Of a stretch of 47,019 bases of DNA, positions 3,674-42,525 are shown piece by piece (within the stretch, counting starts at the first letter, position 1; every line of letters begins with the position of its first letter). Made by a program: the position numbers and the translations under genes. Source of the stretch: Candidatus Stoquefichus sp. (lineage in GTDB: Bacteria > Bacillota_I > Bacilli_A > Erysipelotrichales > Coprobacillaceae); NCBI GenBank assembly GCA_021768625.1, contig JAETUM010000020.1, forward strand, positions 1-47,019, read 5' to 3'. The notes under the pieces are model-generated. The model worked only from the letters and a program-made list of their open reading frames with translations. It was not told the origin of the DNA and made no database searches.

Positions 3674-3751
3674 TAATGTCATTAACTTAAGAAAATTTAT
3701 AAAATAAAACAGAAAAAGGTCTTGACAAATGTCAGAAAAAATGTGGCGAAG

Positions 3752-34348: not shown

Positions 34349-36811
34349 ATTATTGACCAAGTCATTAACATATTTTTTACTTTTATAGGAGTTATTCTAT
34401 CATTTTGTGTATCAATTTTTGTGTGCTTTGGAATTTATATTTATTTTAAGTATTTTTATTTAAGAAAAATATGGATTGCTAAGATTGACAAAGAAAAAAT
34501 AAAAGAATGTATCATTATATTATTAGTGGTTATAGCTTTTTTTAGTGCGGTATTAATACAAATGAAATATCATTTTATAAATTTTGCAGATCCAAAGGAT
34601 TATTCTTTTAAAATTTTGACATTTTCAAGTATAACATATGGTTTATTACAATTCGGATTGAATTCAAGTAGTGCTAGTAAGAAAATATATTTAGGGGAAG
34701 ATATTATAAAATATGTTTTTCTTGATTCGAGGGTTATAAAATTTTTGTTTACTAAGATATATAAACTTTTATTCTTATACATTGTTTTTAGTGCTGTTTT
34801 TTATAATGCACTAAATTTATCACCAATAGAAGACTTAATTGTATTTTCTAAATATAAGGAACTTATTATAAAACTAAGTGATTTTATGGAATCTCTATGG
34901 TTTGTAGCTATAGTTTTTATGATATTGTTAATATGTTTAACTTTATTTAAGGGTATTTCTTTTATAAAAATCATGTTTACAATAAATAATAACAGGACCA
35001 GAAATATAGAGATGGTTATTGCAAATGAAAAGATAAAGGAATTAAAAAATAATTTACTTGAAAATTTATATATAGGTGATTTAAAATATTTTTTTAATAC
35101 TGTAATATTCAAAATGAAAGGACTGTCATCTGATGAAAGGAATAAGTATTTATCTCTTGTTAGTTATAGTTTTAATTTTATTGATGATGATCAATTTTTG
35201 GAAAATATAATTTATTATTATTCGTTACAAAATTATGATAGTAAGCTCGAACTATTCTTTCGTTTTACAGTAAGAGAATATAACAATTTAATACATAAAA
35301 AACCTAATGAGATAGATTTCCTTGAAATGGATACATTATTTTTGGATTTAATTAATTGTTTTCATGATTTCATTATGGGCTTGAATCATTTCAAAAAAAT
35401 TGATTCAAATTCTATGGATGAACTAATTGAAATGTATAGTATAATAGAAAGTATATTGTACAAAATTTGTTTTATAATATTTAAAGAAAATAGTAAAAGA
35501 GAAGATTTTTTAAGAAAAAATTTATATAATGATACAAATAAAAATAGATTTTGTTCTAATTTATATAAACAAAACTATGATAATACAATGAGTAAATTGC
35601 TTGAGTTGACTACTAATGTTGATCAAATTAAGGCAATATTTATTATGCTATTAAAAAGCCCTCTTCGCTTGTCTTCATCAAACCATAAAGATTCTTTTTT
35701 AGATGTTGTAGAGAATGTAAATAGAGCAAAAGATATAATAGATCAAATATTACAATTATGTGAATGTAGAGGATATTCTGATCAAGATACCATTAAAATA
35801 TTTACTCTGAATGATGAATTAAGTAAATATGATTGTGGAATTATTGATATGCATATTTTAGAATACTGTCATTCTTGGAGATTTAAGAAAAATTATTATC
35901 CATTATATAGATTAATATTAGACAAGAGTGATTATAATGTTAAAACAAAGTTCATTTTATATCTTTTTTTAGATGGACATCGTTATGATGAAAATTGTGA
36001 TATAAAATTGGATATTAACTTCCTTAAAAAATGTATGTCTTCAACAAGAGAGTATTATAAATTAAATATTAATAGCATAGGAAATGAAATAAAGGAATCT
36101 ATATTATCGTCTAATATAGGGCATCGCTTTAAAGAAAGCGATTTGGATAAATTAATTAATTGGATTGTGAAACAAATATCACCTAGAAATATTATGGAGA
36201 TATATAGTTTTGAAGGTTTGCGTTTTGAGGAATCATTGTTATTGAAATATGTATTAGATTGTAATGTTTCTATAAATACTTTAAATTATTATGACTTTGA
36301 ATGTATTATTTCATTAAACAACTCTAAAGATAAAGTGATCAATACTATTAATTACTTTATTGATGATAAACATTCAAAATTGTTGGGAAATAAATATGTC
36401 ATAGACATTTTATTTTATTATGGTAAATTATTTAAAGAACTTTTTTCAAAAGATAAATCCTTACTATATCATTTTCAATATACATGTAAATTTTATATTA
36501 TATTAAATCAACATTTTTCAAATAATGAATTAATCTGTATGGAGAATGAAATGGGATTCTATAATTCTGAATTTATAGAATATATTATATTGAAGCTTTC
36601 TGATGATAAATATAATCAGTTTTTAGAAAATGATAAATTTAAGAACCAAATTTTAGATAAAGTATATCATTTGATTTCATTGAAAAATTTGGATGTGTTT
36701 AGTTATGTAGAAAAATTATTTGACGATTATTCTAAATACTCATCATTTATAGATTTAACACCTTTAGCAAAAGGAAAAGTTATACATATATTAAAGAAAA
36801 TTATTCATTAA
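34349..36811 (+). CDS. Unrecognised membrane protein with large soluble C-terminus
   Basis: About 820 residues. Hydrophobic segments: VINIFFTFIGVILSFCVSIF (start), CIIILLVVIAFFSAVLI, LLFLYIVFSAVFYNAL and WFVAIVFMILLICLTLF, so about four membrane spans in the first ~220 residues. The remaining ~590 residues are soluble and helical without known motif. The first ATG/GTG in frame (34421) would delete the first span; AAGGAG (34334-34339) points to a non-ATG start, best ATT at 34349, with the frame open from 34343. It is one of the most AT-rich genes here. Located between two defence loci; perhaps a membrane effector, but function is unknown. Confidence 0.65.
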   Translation: MIDQVINIFFTFIGVILSFCVSIFVCFGIYIYFKYFYLRKIWIAKIDKEKIKECIIILLVVIAFFSAVLIQMKYHFINFADPKDYSFKILTFSSITYGLLQFGLNSSSASKKIYLGEDIIKYVFLDSRVIKFLFTKIYKLLFLYIVFSAVFYNALNLSPIEDLIVFSKYKELIIKLSDFMESLWFVAIVFMILLICLTLFKGISFIKIMFTINNNRTRNIEMVIANEKIKELKNNLLENLYIGDLKYFFNTVIFKMKGLSSDERNKYLSLVSYSFNFIDDDQFLENIIYYYSLQNYDSKLELFFRFTVREYNNLIHKKPNEIDFLEMDTLFLDLINCFHDFIMGLNHFKKIDSNSMDELIEMYSIIESILYKICFIIFKENSKREDFLRKNLYNDTNKNRFCSNLYKQNYDNTMSKLLELTTNVDQIKAIFIMLLKSPLRLSSSNHKDSFLDVVENVNRAKDIIDQILQLCECRGYSDQDTIKIFTLNDELSKYDCGIIDMHILEYCHSWRFKKNYYPLYRLILDKSDYNVKTKFILYLFLDGHRYDENCDIKLDINFLKKCMSSTREYYKLNINSIGNEIKESILSSNIGHRFKESDLDKLINWIVKQISPRNIMEIYSFEGLRFEESLLLKYVLDCNVSINTLNYYDFECIISLNNSKDKVINTINYFIDDKHSKLLGNKYVIDILFYYGKLFKELFSKDKSLLYHFQYTCKFYIILNQHFSNNELICMENEMGFYNSEFIEYIILKLSDDKYNQFLENDKFKNQILDKVYHLISLKNLDVFSYVEKLFDDYSKYSSFIDLTPLAKGKVIHILKKIIH

Positions 36812-36926
36812 TATTTCTAGAGATATTTAATAAGCAACGAATATAAAGTAGATTAATTATTATCTTAACTTAAATTACCTTTACTTTAATTAGAAAATAT
36901 GATCTAATTTTAGAGAGGTGATTTTT

Positions 36927-39230
36927 ATGTCGAAATGGAGTGCAGAAACATATAAAGCAAGTGATTTAGCTGAATTAATTGATAAAAAAGAAATACGTGT
37001 TCCTCCATATCAAAGAGGTCAAGTATGGAAAAAGAAACAAGAAGAAAAATTAGTTGATTCTATTAAGAAAGGATTTCCTTTTGGAACGTTGTTATTATAT
37101 AAAAAAGAAGATGGAAGCTTTCAACTTATTGATGGTTTGCAACGCTCTACGACAATAACAAAATATTTAAAAAATCCAGCTAAATTTTATAAAGATGAAG
37201 ATATTGATGAAAATACTATTGATAAGATTTATAAACTTTTATCTATAAGTGGAAATGAAGAAAAGATAAAGACAAACATAAAGAATACAATTAAAGATTG
37301 GGTTATAAACAATCATAGGACAATGGAAGATGTCAAAAATATGGATCATCCTGAATGTGCTAAAATATTAATAGAATCTTATCCTACTGGAAAAGATAAT
37401 ATGTGGGAAATTATAAAAATTATTGGTAAAATGTTTAAGAAATTTAAAGAAGAGTGTGAAGAATTTTCTAATACAGAAATACCTGCAATTATATATTATG
37501 GAGATCCAGGTAATTTACCAACTATTTTTGATAGAATTAATTCTCAAGGTACGCAACTTTCTAAATATCAAATATTAGCTGCAACATGGACATATCAAAA
37601 ATATAAAATACTTAATGAAGATTTAAAAGGAATAGTAGATTATGTTAATAAATTTTATACATCTTTACTAGATGAGAATTTTGAAATTGATGATTATAAT
37701 GTTAATGGTTTATATATGGAAAAAGACTTAAATCTTTATCAACTATTATTTGGATTTGGAAAATTATTAGCAGATAAATATCCATGTTTATTTAGTTTGG
37801 TAAAAAAAGATAAAGATGTTCAAAGTTGTGGATTTAATTTAGTTAATGCTTGTGTAGGTAATAGAAATTCAAAAATAGAAGATTTATCAAAAATTCTAAA
37901 TGAATGTTTTCATACAGATCAAGAAATAAACGATTTTCTATGTAATATCTTACGAGCCACAGAAGAAGCGTACAAATGTTTACAATCCTATTTGAAATTT
38001 AAACTTAATAAAAGAGATGATACAATTGTTATTTATCATACGGAAATGCAAATATGTTCCTTGATTTCCAATATCTTTAATGCTAGATATACATATTATA
38101 CTTATGATGATCATCAAAACATAATAGGACGCAGTATTGAAATACATAAATCAAAAAAATCATATGATGATTATAAGCGTAAATTAAGAGAAAATTGTTT
38201 TAAAAGATATTTAATGGATATTTTAAATAACAAATGGAAAGGTACTGGAGATAAAAATCTTGATGAGATTTCCTTAAATCCTAGTTATTATACTGATTAT
38301 ATTTCTAAAGATATGTTGGGAAATACATTAGATCACTGGATTGGGCAGATGAATACAGAAAGGAATGAATATAGAAAGGTAAAAATGCCAGGACCAGGAG
38401 AAAAGTTATTGTTAAGTGTCATTTATTCTAAGACATTTACAGCATATGAACAAAATGATGATATTAATTATGATATAGAACACTTAGCTCCAAAAGGTGC
38501 ATTGAAAAAGATTTTAAAATTATTTAATTTAAATGGTATGTATTCAGGATTACCTATCAGTTCATTTGCTAATTTATGTTTACTTAGAGAAGAAGAAAAT
38601 AGGAAAAAGAAAGATAAAACATTATATGAAGATGATAATTATTTAAAAATAATTAACAATAAATATGTAAGTTTAGAAGAAATAGAAAATAAGTTTAGTT
38701 TTACAAAAGAAGAAGATTTTGATTGGTTAAATTATTATTATGTTGATTTTGAAGAACTAAAGAAAAATTATTTGAATTTTCTTTCTAAAAGATTTGAAAA
38801 ACAAAAAAGAATGATTCTTAATAATTTGTTTGTTAATGAAAATTATACTAACCAAACAGAAAAAGTGGCTAAAAGAATAATAAAAGAAGAAACATCTTCT
38901 ATTCAAAGTGCAGTTCAAAATTTAAGAGTAGATACTTCTGAAATAGATTTATTAGTTCCGCTTTTTTCAGAAGAACAAATTGATGTTGAATACTTATCTG
39001 GCTGGCAAAAAGCTATATTTAATATAATTGATAAATTTGAGGCAGATGAATTTACTTTACAACAAATGTATAATTACATAGATGAATTAAAAAAGAACTA
39101 CCCCCAAAATAATACTATTGATGCAAAGATCAGACAGGTTCTACAAAATCTTAGAAATATGGGATTAATTGAGTTTATGAGTGCTGGAAAATATAAAAGA
39201 TTATGGAAATCAAAAAAAGTTAATAATTAA
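36927..39230 (+). CDS. GmrSD-like DUF262-DUF1524 protein
   Basis: About 767 residues. The N-terminal DUF262 (ParB-like nucleotide-binding) domain shows RVPPYQRGQVWK (24-35), DSIKKGFPFGTLLLY and LIDGLQRSTT (68-76). The DUF1524 HNH-type nuclease module shows DIEHLAPKG (about 514-522) and a downstream NLCLLREEENRKKKD. A C-terminal helical/winged segment (about 690-767) is extra. This single-chain layout is that of GmrSD-type enzymes that cut modified (glucosylated or other) DNA, and of SspE-like effectors. ATG 36927 with AGAGAGGTG is preferred over GTG 36918. Monocistronic. Confidence 0.85.
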   Translation: MSKWSAETYKASDLAELIDKKEIRVPPYQRGQVWKKKQEEKLVDSIKKGFPFGTLLLYKKEDGSFQLIDGLQRSTTITKYLKNPAKFYKDEDIDENTIDKIYKLLSISGNEEKIKTNIKNTIKDWVINNHRTMEDVKNMDHPECAKILIESYPTGKDNMWEIIKIIGKMFKKFKEECEEFSNTEIPAIIYYGDPGNLPTIFDRINSQGTQLSKYQILAATWTYQKYKILNEDLKGIVDYVNKFYTSLLDENFEIDDYNVNGLYMEKDLNLYQLLFGFGKLLADKYPCLFSLVKKDKDVQSCGFNLVNACVGNRNSKIEDLSKILNECFHTDQEINDFLCNILRATEEAYKCLQSYLKFKLNKRDDTIVIYHTEMQICSLISNIFNARYTYYTYDDHQNIIGRSIEIHKSKKSYDDYKRKLRENCFKRYLMDILNNKWKGTGDKNLDEISLNPSYYTDYISKDMLGNTLDHWIGQMNTERNEYRKVKMPGPGEKLLLSVIYSKTFTAYEQNDDINYDIEHLAPKGALKKILKLFNLNGMYSGLPISSFANLCLLREEENRKKKDKTLYEDDNYLKIINNKYVSLEEIENKFSFTKEEDFDWLNYYYVDFEELKKNYLNFLSKRFEKQKRMILNNLFVNENYTNQTEKVAKRIIKEETSSIQSAVQNLRVDTSEIDLLVPLFSEEQIDVEYLSGWQKAIFNIIDKFEADEFTLQQMYNYIDELKKNYPQNNTIDAKIRQVLQNLRNMGLIEFMSAGKYKRLWKSKKVNN

Positions 39231-39243
39231 ATTTTAAAAGATA

Positions 39244-39266
39244 TCCTTTAGTTAATTACTAAAAGA
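39244..39266 (+). repeat. Left recombinase-site inverted repeat
   Basis: 23 bp, perfect inverted copy of 40342-40364. The core CTTTAGT-n5-ACTAAAAG is itself nearly palindromic, as in core sites of tyrosine recombinases. It lies just after the GmrSD-like gene and just outside the recombinase terminator. Confidence 0.8.
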
Positions 39267-39289
39267 AAAAGATCTGTATAAAACAGATC
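39261..39289 (-). terminator. Terminator of the recombinase gene
   Basis: On the minus strand GATCTG-ttttata-CAGATC is followed by TTTTTCTTTT. It closes the recombinase transcript in the present orientation. After inversion it would lie directly before the methylase gene at 40378. Confidence 0.65.
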
Positions 39290-39306
39290 AATGTGGAGTG
39301 TGTATG

Positions 39307-40245
39307 TTAAATAACAATCTTATTCATACATGTTTTTTTATACTCTTTTTTTGAATGAACATATAAATTCATTGTTGTACTTGGTGAAGAGTGTCCTAAT
39401 ATTTCACTCAAACAATTATAATCAAAGCCTAATTCAATGCATTGACTTGCGAAATAGTGTCTTAAAGAATGAACAGTAACATTTGATAAGTCAATTTTCT
39501 TTAAAATCCTTTTAAAATGATATCTTAATGTTCTTGGTTCTATATATTTTTCATTTTGTGTAAGGAAATAATAATTGTTATTTTCTATTTCTAAATATGG
39601 TAATAGTGTATTAGGAATTGGAATAATCCTTGTAGAATGATGTGTTTTTGTTGATGAAATAATAATCTTTGATGAATGGTTATCTATATCATAAATTCTT
39701 TGTAATGTTTTATCTATGTATAATTCTTGTTTGTTAAGATTAATATCTTGATTCGTAAGTGCACATAATTCTCCAATTCTTATGCCAGTACATAAAATGA
39801 GTAAGATACCTATCGAGATAAATGTTCTCTCTTGTTTTAAATATTTTATTAATTGTTCACATTCATTGTGATCAAGCATTTGAATAATATGATTATGTTT
39901 AGGATATTTGAATTCAAATATTATTGATTCAATAATGTGATTATTTATAGCGCTTTTTAGACTTAATTTAATAATATTAACTAATTCCTTTACAGTTTTA
40001 ACTGATAATCCTCCTTGATGATCCAGTCTTCCATACATAATCTTATCATTAATAAATTCTTGTATTTCTTTATTTGTCATTTTAGAGATATACACATCCT
40101 TAAAATAAGGCTTAATATGATTTTCTATATGCGTTTTATATGTTGAATATGTTGATTCTTTAATTTGATTTTTTTGTAATATCAACCATTTATCCAACCA
40201 ATCATTATATTTTATGTATTTCTTCCTTTTTAAGTTTATTTTCAT
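39307..40245 (-). CDS. Tyrosine recombinase within inverted repeats
   Basis: 312 residues. N-terminal core-binding SAM-like domain (YNDWLDKWLILQKNQIKEST), then the catalytic domain with Arg in CTGIRIGELCAL, Lys in STKTHHST, HSLRHYFASQ, GHSSPSTT and Tyr in MNLYVHSKK. It lacks the arm-binding domain of phage integrases, so it is closer to Xer-like or invertase-type enzymes. It is the only gene between two 23-bp perfect inverted repeats and would therefore flip itself together with the promoter region facing the methylase. Start ATG has AGGGAGG. Intact. Confidence 0.88.
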   Translation of the reverse strand: MKINLKRKKYIKYNDWLDKWLILQKNQIKESTYSTYKTHIENHIKPYFKDVYISKMTNKEIQEFINDKIMYGRLDHQGGLSVKTVKELVNIIKLSLKSAINNHIIESIIFEFKYPKHNHIIQMLDHNECEQLIKYLKQERTFISIGILLILCTGIRIGELCALTNQDINLNKQELYIDKTLQRIYDIDNHSSKIIISSTKTHHSTRIIPIPNTLLPYLEIENNNYYFLTQNEKYIEPRTLRYHFKRILKKIDLSNVTVHSLRHYFASQCIELGFDYNCLSEILGHSSPSTTMNLYVHSKKEYKKTCMNKIVI

Positions 40246-40341
40246 TTTCTTTTCCTCCCTTTTTATAAATTATAGTCTATTAAACAAAGGATAGATTATA
40301 TTTAAAAAAAATGTTAAACTATTTACATAAAGAAAAAGATA
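40246..40341. promoter_or_regulatory. Divergent control region inside the invertible segment
   Basis: 96 nt between recombinase start and right repeat. It must hold the recombinase promoter and, in this orientation, promoter elements for the methylase; a possible plus-strand pair is TTTACA (40322-40327) with TTTAGT (40345-40350) at 17 nt, the latter inside the repeat. Weak match; the assignment is tentative. Confidence 0.35.
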
Positions 40342-40364
40342 TCTTTTAGTAATTAACTAAAGGA
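40342..40364 (-). repeat. Right recombinase-site inverted repeat
   Basis: Perfect inverted copy of 39244-39266. It lies 13 nt before the methylase start codon, just ahead of its AAAAGGAG ribosome site, so inversion changes what lies upstream but leaves the ribosome site in place. Confidence 0.8.
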
Positions 40365-40377
40365 AAAGGAGAATGTT

Positions 40378-41202
40378 ATGAAAGCTATTTTGAAATGGCC
40401 AGGTGGAAAAAGACAACTATTAAATGAAATCAAGAAATATATTCCTGAAAATATAAATACATATTATGAACCTTTTATAGGTGGTGGAGCAGTTTTCTTT
40501 GATTTAATGTTTAATGATGCTTATATGAATGATGTTAATTGGGAATTAGTTAATGTATATAAACAAATTAAAAGTCATTCTAAAAAATTAATTCAACTTT
40601 TAGAAAAACATAAACAGAATCATAATAAAGAATATTATTATTCCATAAGAAAATTAGATAGAAGTGAACAATATCAAGAGTTGAGTCATATTGAAAAAGC
40701 AGCAAGATTTATATATTTAAATAAAACTTGTTATAACGGATTATATAGAGTTAATTCAAAGGGACAGTTCAATGCACCTATGGGTAAATATAAAAATCCT
40801 AATATTTGTGATAAAGAGCATATTTTAGAAATGAGTCAATATCTCAAAAAAAATCATATTCAAATTAAAAATATGGATTTTGAAAAATTTTTAAAAAATG
40901 TTAAAAAAGGTGACTTTGTGTATTTAGATCCACCATATGACCCCTTGTCAGATACTGCTAATTTTACAAGTTATAGCAAAGATGGTTTTAATAAAAAAGA
41001 TCAAATACGTTTAAAAAAGGTGTGTGATGTTTTAAATGAAAAAGGAGTTCATTTCTTATTATCAAATTCAAATACAAGTTTTATTAATGATTTATATAAA
41101 GATTATAAGATTGTAAAAGTTAAAGCAAGAAGAAATATTAATTCAAAAGGTAATGGCAGAGGAGAAATATTTGAAGTTTTAATAATGAATTATGAGGAGT
41201 GA
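40378..41202 (+). CDS. DpnII/Dam-type adenine methyltransferase
   Basis: 274 residues of the D12 class: SAM-binding FKWPGGK-like motif (KWPGGKRQLL, 6-15), motif I YYEPFIGGGAVFFDL (29-43) and catalytic DPPY (about 184-187) in VYLDPPYDPLSDT. FNAPMGKYKNP is typical of M.DpnIIA and M1.FokI-like enzymes. It makes N6-methyladenine. The start lies 13 nt after a recombinase site and depends on the promoter in the invertible segment. The restriction gene follows 6 nt downstream. Confidence 0.92.
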   Translation: MKAILKWPGGKRQLLNEIKKYIPENINTYYEPFIGGGAVFFDLMFNDAYMNDVNWELVNVYKQIKSHSKKLIQLLEKHKQNHNKEYYYSIRKLDRSEQYQELSHIEKAARFIYLNKTCYNGLYRVNSKGQFNAPMGKYKNPNICDKEHILEMSQYLKKNHIQIKNMDFEKFLKNVKKGDFVYLDPPYDPLSDTANFTSYSKDGFNKKDQIRLKKVCDVLNEKGVHFLLSNSNTSFINDLYKDYKIVKVKARRNINSKGNGRGEIFEVLIMNYEE

Positions 41203-41208
41203 TAATGA

Positions 41209-42525
41209 ATGAATACTACAGAAGCATGGGAAAAGTTAATAGATAAGTATCATATTGTTGAAGAGATTAATAAAAATGGTGTTTTTCATATTGAGGCAAG
41301 TCAAATCAGAGAGTTCAAAGAACCAAGACTCATGGCAAAATGGGATAGTTCAGAACAATTGCCAGCACCTCTGAAAAATAAAAATATTAATATTTTACCT
41401 GATAGTAGAAAAAGTTATGTTTTAGGAGATTTTCTTTTATATGAAGATATTCCTGAATTAGATAATCATATTAATCAGATAACATCTATTGAAGTTCCTC
41501 ATTATGAATCTATTGATATAGATAATATTACTTCAGAAGCCAATGCAATTAATGTTTTGGTATTATCTAAAATATTAGATGATTTTCTATCTACTGATGA
41601 AAATGTTGCAACATTTAATGGAAGAATGGGAACAGGTTCATTTGAGTTTACAGTGTATGATCACAACAAAGAGAAAAAGAATCATATAGATGTTATTAAT
41701 GCTCAGTGTGAAATAGATGGTGGCTTTGAAAATAAAAGCTCTGTTGTTATATTGGAAGCTAAAAATGTTCTTCATAAAGATTTTCACATAAGACAACTTT
41801 ATTATCCTTATAGATTATGGCGTTCAAAAGTAAAGAAACCCATAAGGCTTGTGTTCTCTATATATTCAAATAAAATATTTAGATTATTTGAATATAAATT
41901 TGAGGATATTAATGATTATTCATCTATTAAACTTGTTCAAAGTAAGAATTATTCTTTAGAGAATACCAAAATCACTTTAGATGATTTAATAGATGTAAAA
42001 AATAAAACAAAAGTAAAATATAATGATAATCAAAATGATAAGAAGTTACCTCCATTTGTTCAAGCAGATAATTTTAATAGAGTTATTTCACTATTAGAAA
42101 ATATGTATGATACAACAATGGATGATGAAGAAATAGCTGAATTAATGCATTTTGGTTATAATATGAGTAATGGCAAACCACAATATCGTCAATCACAATA
42201 TTATTATAATGCTGGAAAATATTTAGGATTATTTCATAAGAAAAGGGACAATAAGAAAGTTGTTTGTTATTTAACTGAATTAGGTAATGAGGTATATAGG
42301 ATGTCCTATAAAGAAAGGCAATTAAAATTAGTTTCTCTTATCTTAGAACATCAAATATTTAATGAGTTATTTGAATATACTATAGAAAATAAGATGTTAC
42401 CTAAAAAAGAAATGATTATGAAGAGAATGAGAGAATTAAATGTCTGTGGTGAAAGTCAAGTATCTAGAAGGGCAAGTTCTGTTAGTGGTTGGTTATATTG
42501 GATATTTAAACTCATAAAGTTGTAA
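41209..42525 (+). CDS. Type II restriction endonuclease (PD-(D/E)XK type)
   Basis: 438 residues. The nuclease core is seen in CEIDGGFE (about 167-174) followed by VVILEAKNV (about 179-187), the D-X-E-A-K form. RQLYYPYRLW and VFSIYSNKIFRLFEY follow. The C-terminal third (about 285-438) is a helical/winged domain that may recognise DNA or set specificity. It is the partner of the DpnII-type methylase, sharing its promoter, so both would switch together. Exact specificity cannot be read. ATG 41209 chosen; the ATG at 41205 is out of frame. Confidence 0.75.
   Translation: MNTTEAWEKLIDKYHIVEEINKNGVFHIEASQIREFKEPRLMAKWDSSEQLPAPLKNKNINILPDSRKSYVLGDFLLYEDIPELDNHINQITSIEVPHYESIDIDNITSEANAINVLVLSKILDDFLSTDENVATFNGRMGTGSFEFTVYDHNKEKKNHIDVINAQCEIDGGFENKSSVVILEAKNVLHKDFHIRQLYYPYRLWRSKVKKPIRLVFSIYSNKIFRLFEYKFEDINDYSSIKLVQSKNYSLENTKITLDDLIDVKNKTKVKYNDNQNDKKLPPFVQADNFNRVISLLENMYDTTMDDEEIAELMHFGYNMSNGKPQYRQSQYYYNAGKYLGLFHKKRDNKKVVCYLTELGNEVYRMSYKERQLKLVSLILEHQIFNELFEYTIENKMLPKKEMIMKRMRELNVCGESQVSRRASSVSGWLYWIFKLIKL

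Follow-up and report, generated by a model that had tools for sequence, protein, structure and literature searches.

The window analysed here (the whole stretch of 47,019 nt from the gut bacterium Candidatus Stoquefichus sp.) contains a tyrosine recombinase gene enclosed by inverted repeats, with a nuclease gene on its left and a methylase and a second nuclease gene on its right. The features of this region are the following:

36880-36908, + strand: TTTACT-17-TCTAAT, a candidate promoter for the GmrSD-DpnI_C gene whose -10 region contains GATC (36901-36904), the same arrangement being present in 4 of 4 orthologs
36927-39230, + strand: GmrSD-type nuclease (DUF262, EHLAP motif; PF03235) with a C-terminal DpnI winged helix (PF17726; match to DpnI 4ESJ, E 1e-12), called GmrSD-DpnI_C
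39244-39266, no strand: left recombination site, a 23-bp inverted repeat with a core spacer reverse-complementary to the one in the right site
39271-39289, - strand: intrinsic terminator of the recombinase gene, GATCTG..CAGATC plus T-run, which would precede the methylase after inversion
39307-40245, - strand: tyrosine recombinase (PF00589, catalytic residues conserved), inside the putatively invertible segment
40288-40317, - strand: candidate recombinase promoter, TTAACA-18-TATCCT, with a similar element in orthologs
40292-40320, + strand: candidate outward promoter, TAGATT-17-TGT-TAAACT, with an extended -10, facing the methylase and weaker than those of the relatives
40342-40364, no strand: right recombination site, a 23-bp inverted repeat (repeat search, genome-wide core pattern and spacer comparison)
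40368-40371, + strand: ribosome-binding site of the methylase, GGAG, outside the segment and predicted to be buried by a hairpin when the segment is flipped
40378-41202, + strand: adenine methylase of the Dam/DpnM family (TIGR00571 above cut-off; DpnM 2DPM the best solved structure)
41209-42525, + strand: predicted type II nuclease, DUF6996-DUF6997-DUF7226, with a PD-(D/E)XK motif (domain matches and motif alignment)

A previous sequence-only reading of this DNA had described a lone recombinase between perfect 23-bp inverted repeats, and this description was borne out, such a pair being expected by chance about 5e-5 times per 7 kb of the same composition. Both sites, at the ends of the cassette, are near-palindromic, and the core pattern YTTTAGTNANNNACTAAAR matched these two sites only, with no further recombinase target detected by this pattern elsewhere in the 2.92-Mb assembly. 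The recombinase, the only substantial ORF between the repeats, is intact (312 aa) and conserves residues R156, K200, H259, R262, H285 and Y295. The locus presents two marks of an inversion switch, namely perfect, genome-unique inverted repeats around the segment and an intact tyrosine recombinase (PF00589) with its catalytic residues inside it. Two further details of the earlier description also held: the recombinase terminator is there, and proved to be the sole terminator-like site in the 1.4 kb searched (0.2 expected from shuffles), and a gap of 13 nt separates the right repeat from the methylase start (ATG at 40378), with GGAG outside the segment. No hsdS gene was found among the adjacent genes, and between the repeats there is no ORF but that of the recombinase, so the locus does not fall among the type I restriction-modification (R-M) systems that shuffle hsdS. 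A search against Rfam gave no match in the region. A second integrase-like gene occupies positions 638-1738, at the left end of the window, and its part 815-1648 matches the cassette recombinase (E 8e-13).

The two genes to the right of the cassette had been read as a DpnII-type methylase and a nuclease, and the family of the nuclease called for a correction. The methylase belongs to the Dam/DpnM family, as in DpnII-type (GATC) R-M systems, and its GATC specificity is predicted from the family, whereas the nuclease falls outside the DpnII family (PF04556) and carries the domains DUF6996, DUF6997 and DUF7226 with an invariant D...E-A-K motif. A fold search with the nuclease returned weak matches to Cas4-like nucleases and winged helices, none of them below E 0.001. 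Closer relatives of the methylase (about 56%) and of the nuclease (69-70%) occur in genomes G020, G041 and G104, and no cassette was detected in the fetched flanks of these loci. Two further D12-class adenine methylases are encoded in the source genome (G000 C104:47197-47868 and C74:92242-93021), so that the methylase beside the cassette may not be its sole adenine methylase.

A search of 98 related genomes found the closest recombinases (59-63% identity) in five of them, the next best being near 40%. In these five other species of the family the orthologous recombinase lies immediately 5' of a GATC-type methylase gene (5 of 5); 6 of 6 orthologs occupy the same place, at a distance of 8-14 nt where the methylase start could be placed, and none was found elsewhere. 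The relatives' methylase is a fusion of two methylases (DpnM-DpnA type), and the next gene encodes DpnII where tested, PF04556 being found at all three loci examined (L031, L033 and L034). The cassette precedes two GATC R-M modules of different kinds, and this speaks for the switch itself as the conserved element. Repeats of the same type flank the recombinase in 4 of 4 complete relative loci, and the fifth relative, G006, has a contig that stops inside the cassette, with an interruption of the recombinase frame close to this end. Outside the family, no additional ortholog was found in the genome contigs, the order or the class sample searched; viral contigs, phages and plasmids contained recombinase relatives below 40% identity only, and no flanking repeats were found around the Leptotrichia recombinase at L055 (42%).

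The recombinase points toward the methylase in 5 of 5 relatives and away from it in the window. Named records among these relatives are the Erysipelotrichaceae MAGs U.2_7 and MO.1_4, Erysipelatoclostridium sp. An173 and Massilimicrobiota sp. An134. When the An173 locus was compared with the window by Blastn, the GmrSD gene was collinear, the following 1.1 kb was reversed exactly from 40364 to 39244, and the methylase gene was collinear again, with syntenic chromosomal genes further to its right. Both orientations are known between species from this comparison, with breakpoints exactly at the repeats, and five related species have, in their assemblies, the flipped form that the sequence-only reading had suggested looking for in related genomes.

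To compare the two states, both orientations were built in silico for five loci (the window, L031, L032, L033 and L034), and they are called here divergent when the recombinase points away from the methylase, as in the window, and co-directional when it points toward it, as in the relatives. In the divergent state, a promoter-like element (TAGAtt-17-TGT-TARAAT, with TAAACT in the window) lies 45-58 nt 5' of the methylase in 5 of 5 loci, whereas in the co-directional state no promoter element above shuffles was found 5' of the methylase in any of the five. At single loci of the divergent state the outward element reaches modest significance (shuffle p from 0.0 to 0.155, with p 0.145 in the window, where it is weak by consensus), so the case for this promoter rests on its conservation, which may partly come from the overlapping recombinase promoter. 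A methylase promoter to the right of 40364, a possibility raised beforehand, would not fit into the 13 nt that separate the methylase from the right repeat.

The states also differ at both junctions. At the left junction, the co-directional state brings together the outer left flank and the recombinase-5' flank, which can pair in a hairpin followed by a U-tract (-12.4 to -17.7 kcal/mol, 5 of 5 loci); this hairpin is absent from the five loci when they are divergent. Also in the co-directional state, a recombinase terminator precedes the right site, clearly so in the window, L033 and L034 and doubtfully in L031, with none in L032; the expectation that inversion would bring this terminator in front of the methylase was thus matched by the window flipped in silico. 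At the right junction of the same state, the U-rich recombinase-3' flank pairs with the ribosome-binding site of the methylase in a predicted hairpin. The mean unpaired probability of GGAG, co-directional versus divergent, was 0.26-0.32 versus 0.99-1.0 in the window, 0.26-0.27 versus 0.84-0.89 in L033, 0.0 versus 0.01-0.41 in L031, 0.13-0.15 versus 0.34-0.39 in L032, and 0.25-0.46 versus 0.32-0.72 in L034, the differences being small in the last three. From these differences in promoter, termination and probably translation, the divergent state is predicted to be ON and the co-directional state OFF through promoter and termination, with a probable contribution of translation via the ribosome-site hairpin. 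The window would then be in the predicted ON state and the relatives in the predicted OFF state.

On this basis, we consider it likely that 39244-40364 is a self-contained invertible segment that switches the methylase and nuclease operon, a proposal of the sequence-only reading that the comparative sequence evidence supports. That reading had not covered the terminator formed at the left junction, the ribosome-site hairpin formed at the right one, the conserved outward promoter-like element or the predicted methyl-dependent nuclease gene upstream. The DNA itself displays the repeats and their uniqueness, the intact recombinase, the flipped relatives and the capacity of the junctions to form these structures. 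In the proposed mechanism, the tyrosine recombinase would act on both sites at its own ends, flipping the segment and itself with it. As found, the outward promoter, which overlaps that of the recombinase, would face right, and the methylase and nuclease would be transcribed with the ribosome site free. After inversion, the outward promoter would face left, the left junction would form the long hairpin and U-tract that stop upstream transcription, the recombinase terminator would precede the methylase, and the right-junction hairpin would bury its ribosome site. We infer from these comparisons that the recombinase actively inverts the segment, that the promoters and terminators function as such, and that expression is turned ON and OFF.

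A milder form of control, in which the methylase would be expressed both ways, from the outward promoter or by read-through from the recombinase, so that the flip would tune expression and not switch it, seems unlikely to us. It draws on L031 and L032, where the lack of a clear second terminator means that recombinase transcripts may reach the methylase, but at those same loci the right-junction hairpin would bury the ribosome site (unpaired 0.0 in L031 and about 0.14 in L032), and the second terminator is present in the window, L033 and L034.

The sites themselves bear on whether inversion is recurrent. The spacers between their AGT and ACT arms are TAATT, TAAAA, TACGT and AATGA in four lineages, and within each locus the spacer at one end is the exact reverse complement of that at the other (TAAAA/TTTTA in L031, AATGA/TCATT in L034). 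These spacers are divergent between loci yet identical within a locus, a pattern predicted by recurrent inversion. The flanks of the repeats are also alike in direct register (D2); despite this likeness, excision or integration in place of inversion was ruled out because the central spacers match in inverted register only. That the cassette inverted once and is now fixed in each species, no longer switching, would agree with the single orientation of all five relatives, but we judge it improbable given that the recombinase is intact, the repeats are perfect and the spacers are matched within a locus though diverged between loci. A small mobile element inserted 5' of the methylase, with the repeats as its ends and any gene control incidental, could account for the flanks alike in direct register and for the cassette preceding two different R-M modules, but is hardly credible when 6 of 6 orthologs sit at the same place before a GATC methylase and none elsewhere, the spacers match in inverted register only and the genome holds no second copy.

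To the left of the proposed inversion switch, the reading frame of GmrSD-DpnI_C already opens at a GTG (36918). Its winged helix keeps a K and an R that the alignment equates with K229 and R231 of DpnI, residues whose mutation compromised DNA binding by the winged-helix domain, and the KIRQ motif is conserved. The protein shares a DpnI-type winged helix (PF17726) with these DNA-binding residues with the Gm6ATC-dependent fusions, and it is predicted to attack Gm6ATC DNA. A structure model of the GmrSD protein was too poor for use (pLDDT 48). In the candidate GmrSD promoters, GATC falls in the -10 region in 4 of 4 cases (36880-36908 in the window; L033 5087-5122; L034 5081-5109; L153 about 3680-3710), with additional GATC sites close by in L033, L034 and G032, up to three within 45 bp, and in 4 of 4 candidate dpnD promoters GATC lies directly 5' of the -10; the background frequency of GATC is 0.0026 per base. 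The GmrSD-DpnI_C promoter is a candidate methylation-sensitive promoter. Upstream of this gene, at 34421-36811, is encoded a 796-aa protein with hydrophobic N-terminal stretches, for which no match was found in Pfam, NCBIfam or PADLOC.

Among 316 genomes of the order, six were found to have a relative of GmrSD-DpnI_C at E 1e-30. The gene is intact in G000, G031 and G016; in G032 it is divided between two contigs, in G012 it is broken, and in G240 it is a fragment. All four non-degenerate genes are in cassette genomes, of which there are six (hypergeometric p 4e-8, which overstates the significance because the genomes are related). Three of the four lie directly left of the cassette, that of G032 is on other contigs, and G022 and G006 have the cassette without the gene. 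The broken relative (L154, G012 C5) contains several stops, and no cassette recombinase and no close GATC methylase were found in G012. At L031-L034 a DpnD gene stands to the left of the cassette (a Pfam match in L031, L033 and L034, a reading of the sequence in L032); the window has none.

The DpnI-like fusion beside the cassette poses the question of how two mutually lethal defences can coexist in one genome. As a tentative extension of the inversion switch, for which we would claim possibility and not probability, the flip may exchange restriction of unmethylated GATC for that of methylated Gm6ATC, with promoter GATC methylation enforcing exclusivity, in a DpnI/DpnII toggle. In the OFF state GATC would be unmethylated and GmrSD-DpnI_C (with DpnD in the relatives) would destroy Gm6ATC DNA; in the ON state the methylase and nuclease pair would restrict unmethylated GATC, and the methyl-dependent nuclease would be silenced when the GmrSD and dpnD promoters are methylated at GATC or when these genes lose their terminator at the left junction, so that self-cutting is avoided. 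This idea is favoured by the winged helix with K and R equivalent to K229 and R231, the presence of all four non-degenerate GmrSD-DpnI_C genes of 316 genomes in cassette genomes, the GATC in 4 of 4 GmrSD promoters (-10 region) and 4 of 4 dpnD promoters (directly before the -10), the adjacency of DpnD to the cassette in four loci, and the toxicity in Dam+ cells of most winged-helix fusion nucleases tested (PMC11037411). Against it, the GmrSD gene is unlinked to the cassette in G032 and absent from the cassette genomes G022 and G006, and in the window an intact GmrSD gene adjoins a cassette predicted to be ON, which makes it necessary to postulate silencing. Both arms could, perhaps, most simply coexist if the methylase, when ON, kept the GmrSD arm silent. 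If so, one lineage would alternate between two phage defences of which pneumococcal strains have one or the other.

Site-specific inversion switches are of a known kind. Hin of Salmonella is a serine recombinase whose gene lies inside its invertible segment, and in most known phase-variable R-M systems either hsdS specificity genes are shuffled or repeats slip. An invertible 844-bp fimbrial segment of Providencia stuartii also encloses its own recombinase (PMC5903667). The present locus resembles the Hin and P. stuartii segments in having the recombinase gene inside the segment presumed to flip, inverted repeats at the ends and presumed control of an adjacent operon; it differs from them in its target, a type II R-M operon here and a surface structure there, and in the terminator and ribosome-site hairpins that inversion is predicted to create and abolish at the junctions. 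Hsd-based inversion in the type I R-M system of S. pneumoniae (hsdS, with the recombinase PsrA/CreX; PMC4948785) employs, as is proposed here, a tyrosine recombinase and inverted repeats to change methylation in subpopulations, but there the specificity gene is recombined, whereas here the coding genes are intact and transcription would switch.

Pneumococcal strains carry either DpnI or DpnII at a common locus (PMC3573125). The DpnM-like methylase and the DpnI winged helix of the neighbouring nuclease recall those systems, as do the DpnM-DpnA type fusion, DpnII and DpnD of the relatives; here, in contrast, parts of both systems adjoin each other around a putatively invertible cassette, and the window has another nuclease and no dpnD. 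GmrSD-DpnI_C shares the DpnI-type winged helix fused to a nuclease with the Gm6ATC-dependent endonucleases of PMC11037411, and DUF262 with an EHxxP HNH motif with the GmrSD type IV enzymes (PMC12707154), but the GmrSD fusion is not among the architectures of the former study, in which GmrSD/DUF262 is unmentioned. No inversion-switched type II R-M operon was found in the open-access papers searched, and such a switch, its junction hairpins that would be built and dissolved, and the possible toggle appear to be new in the literature searched. If confirmed, a self-flipping recombinase that turns a whole type II pair on and off would be a new control logic, with the hazard of sites losing methylation in cells that still hold the nuclease, and one population could contain GATC-methylated and unmethylated cells, resistant to differently marked phages.

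More distantly, a sister cassette of 1.14 kb lies beside a NusG-like gene in opposite orientations at L046 and L047 (G083 C12 and G074 C13), with flanks 96% identical, indicating that cassettes of this wider kind do invert. Similar self-flanked cassettes adjoin NusG-like, Wzz and other genes in several genomes.
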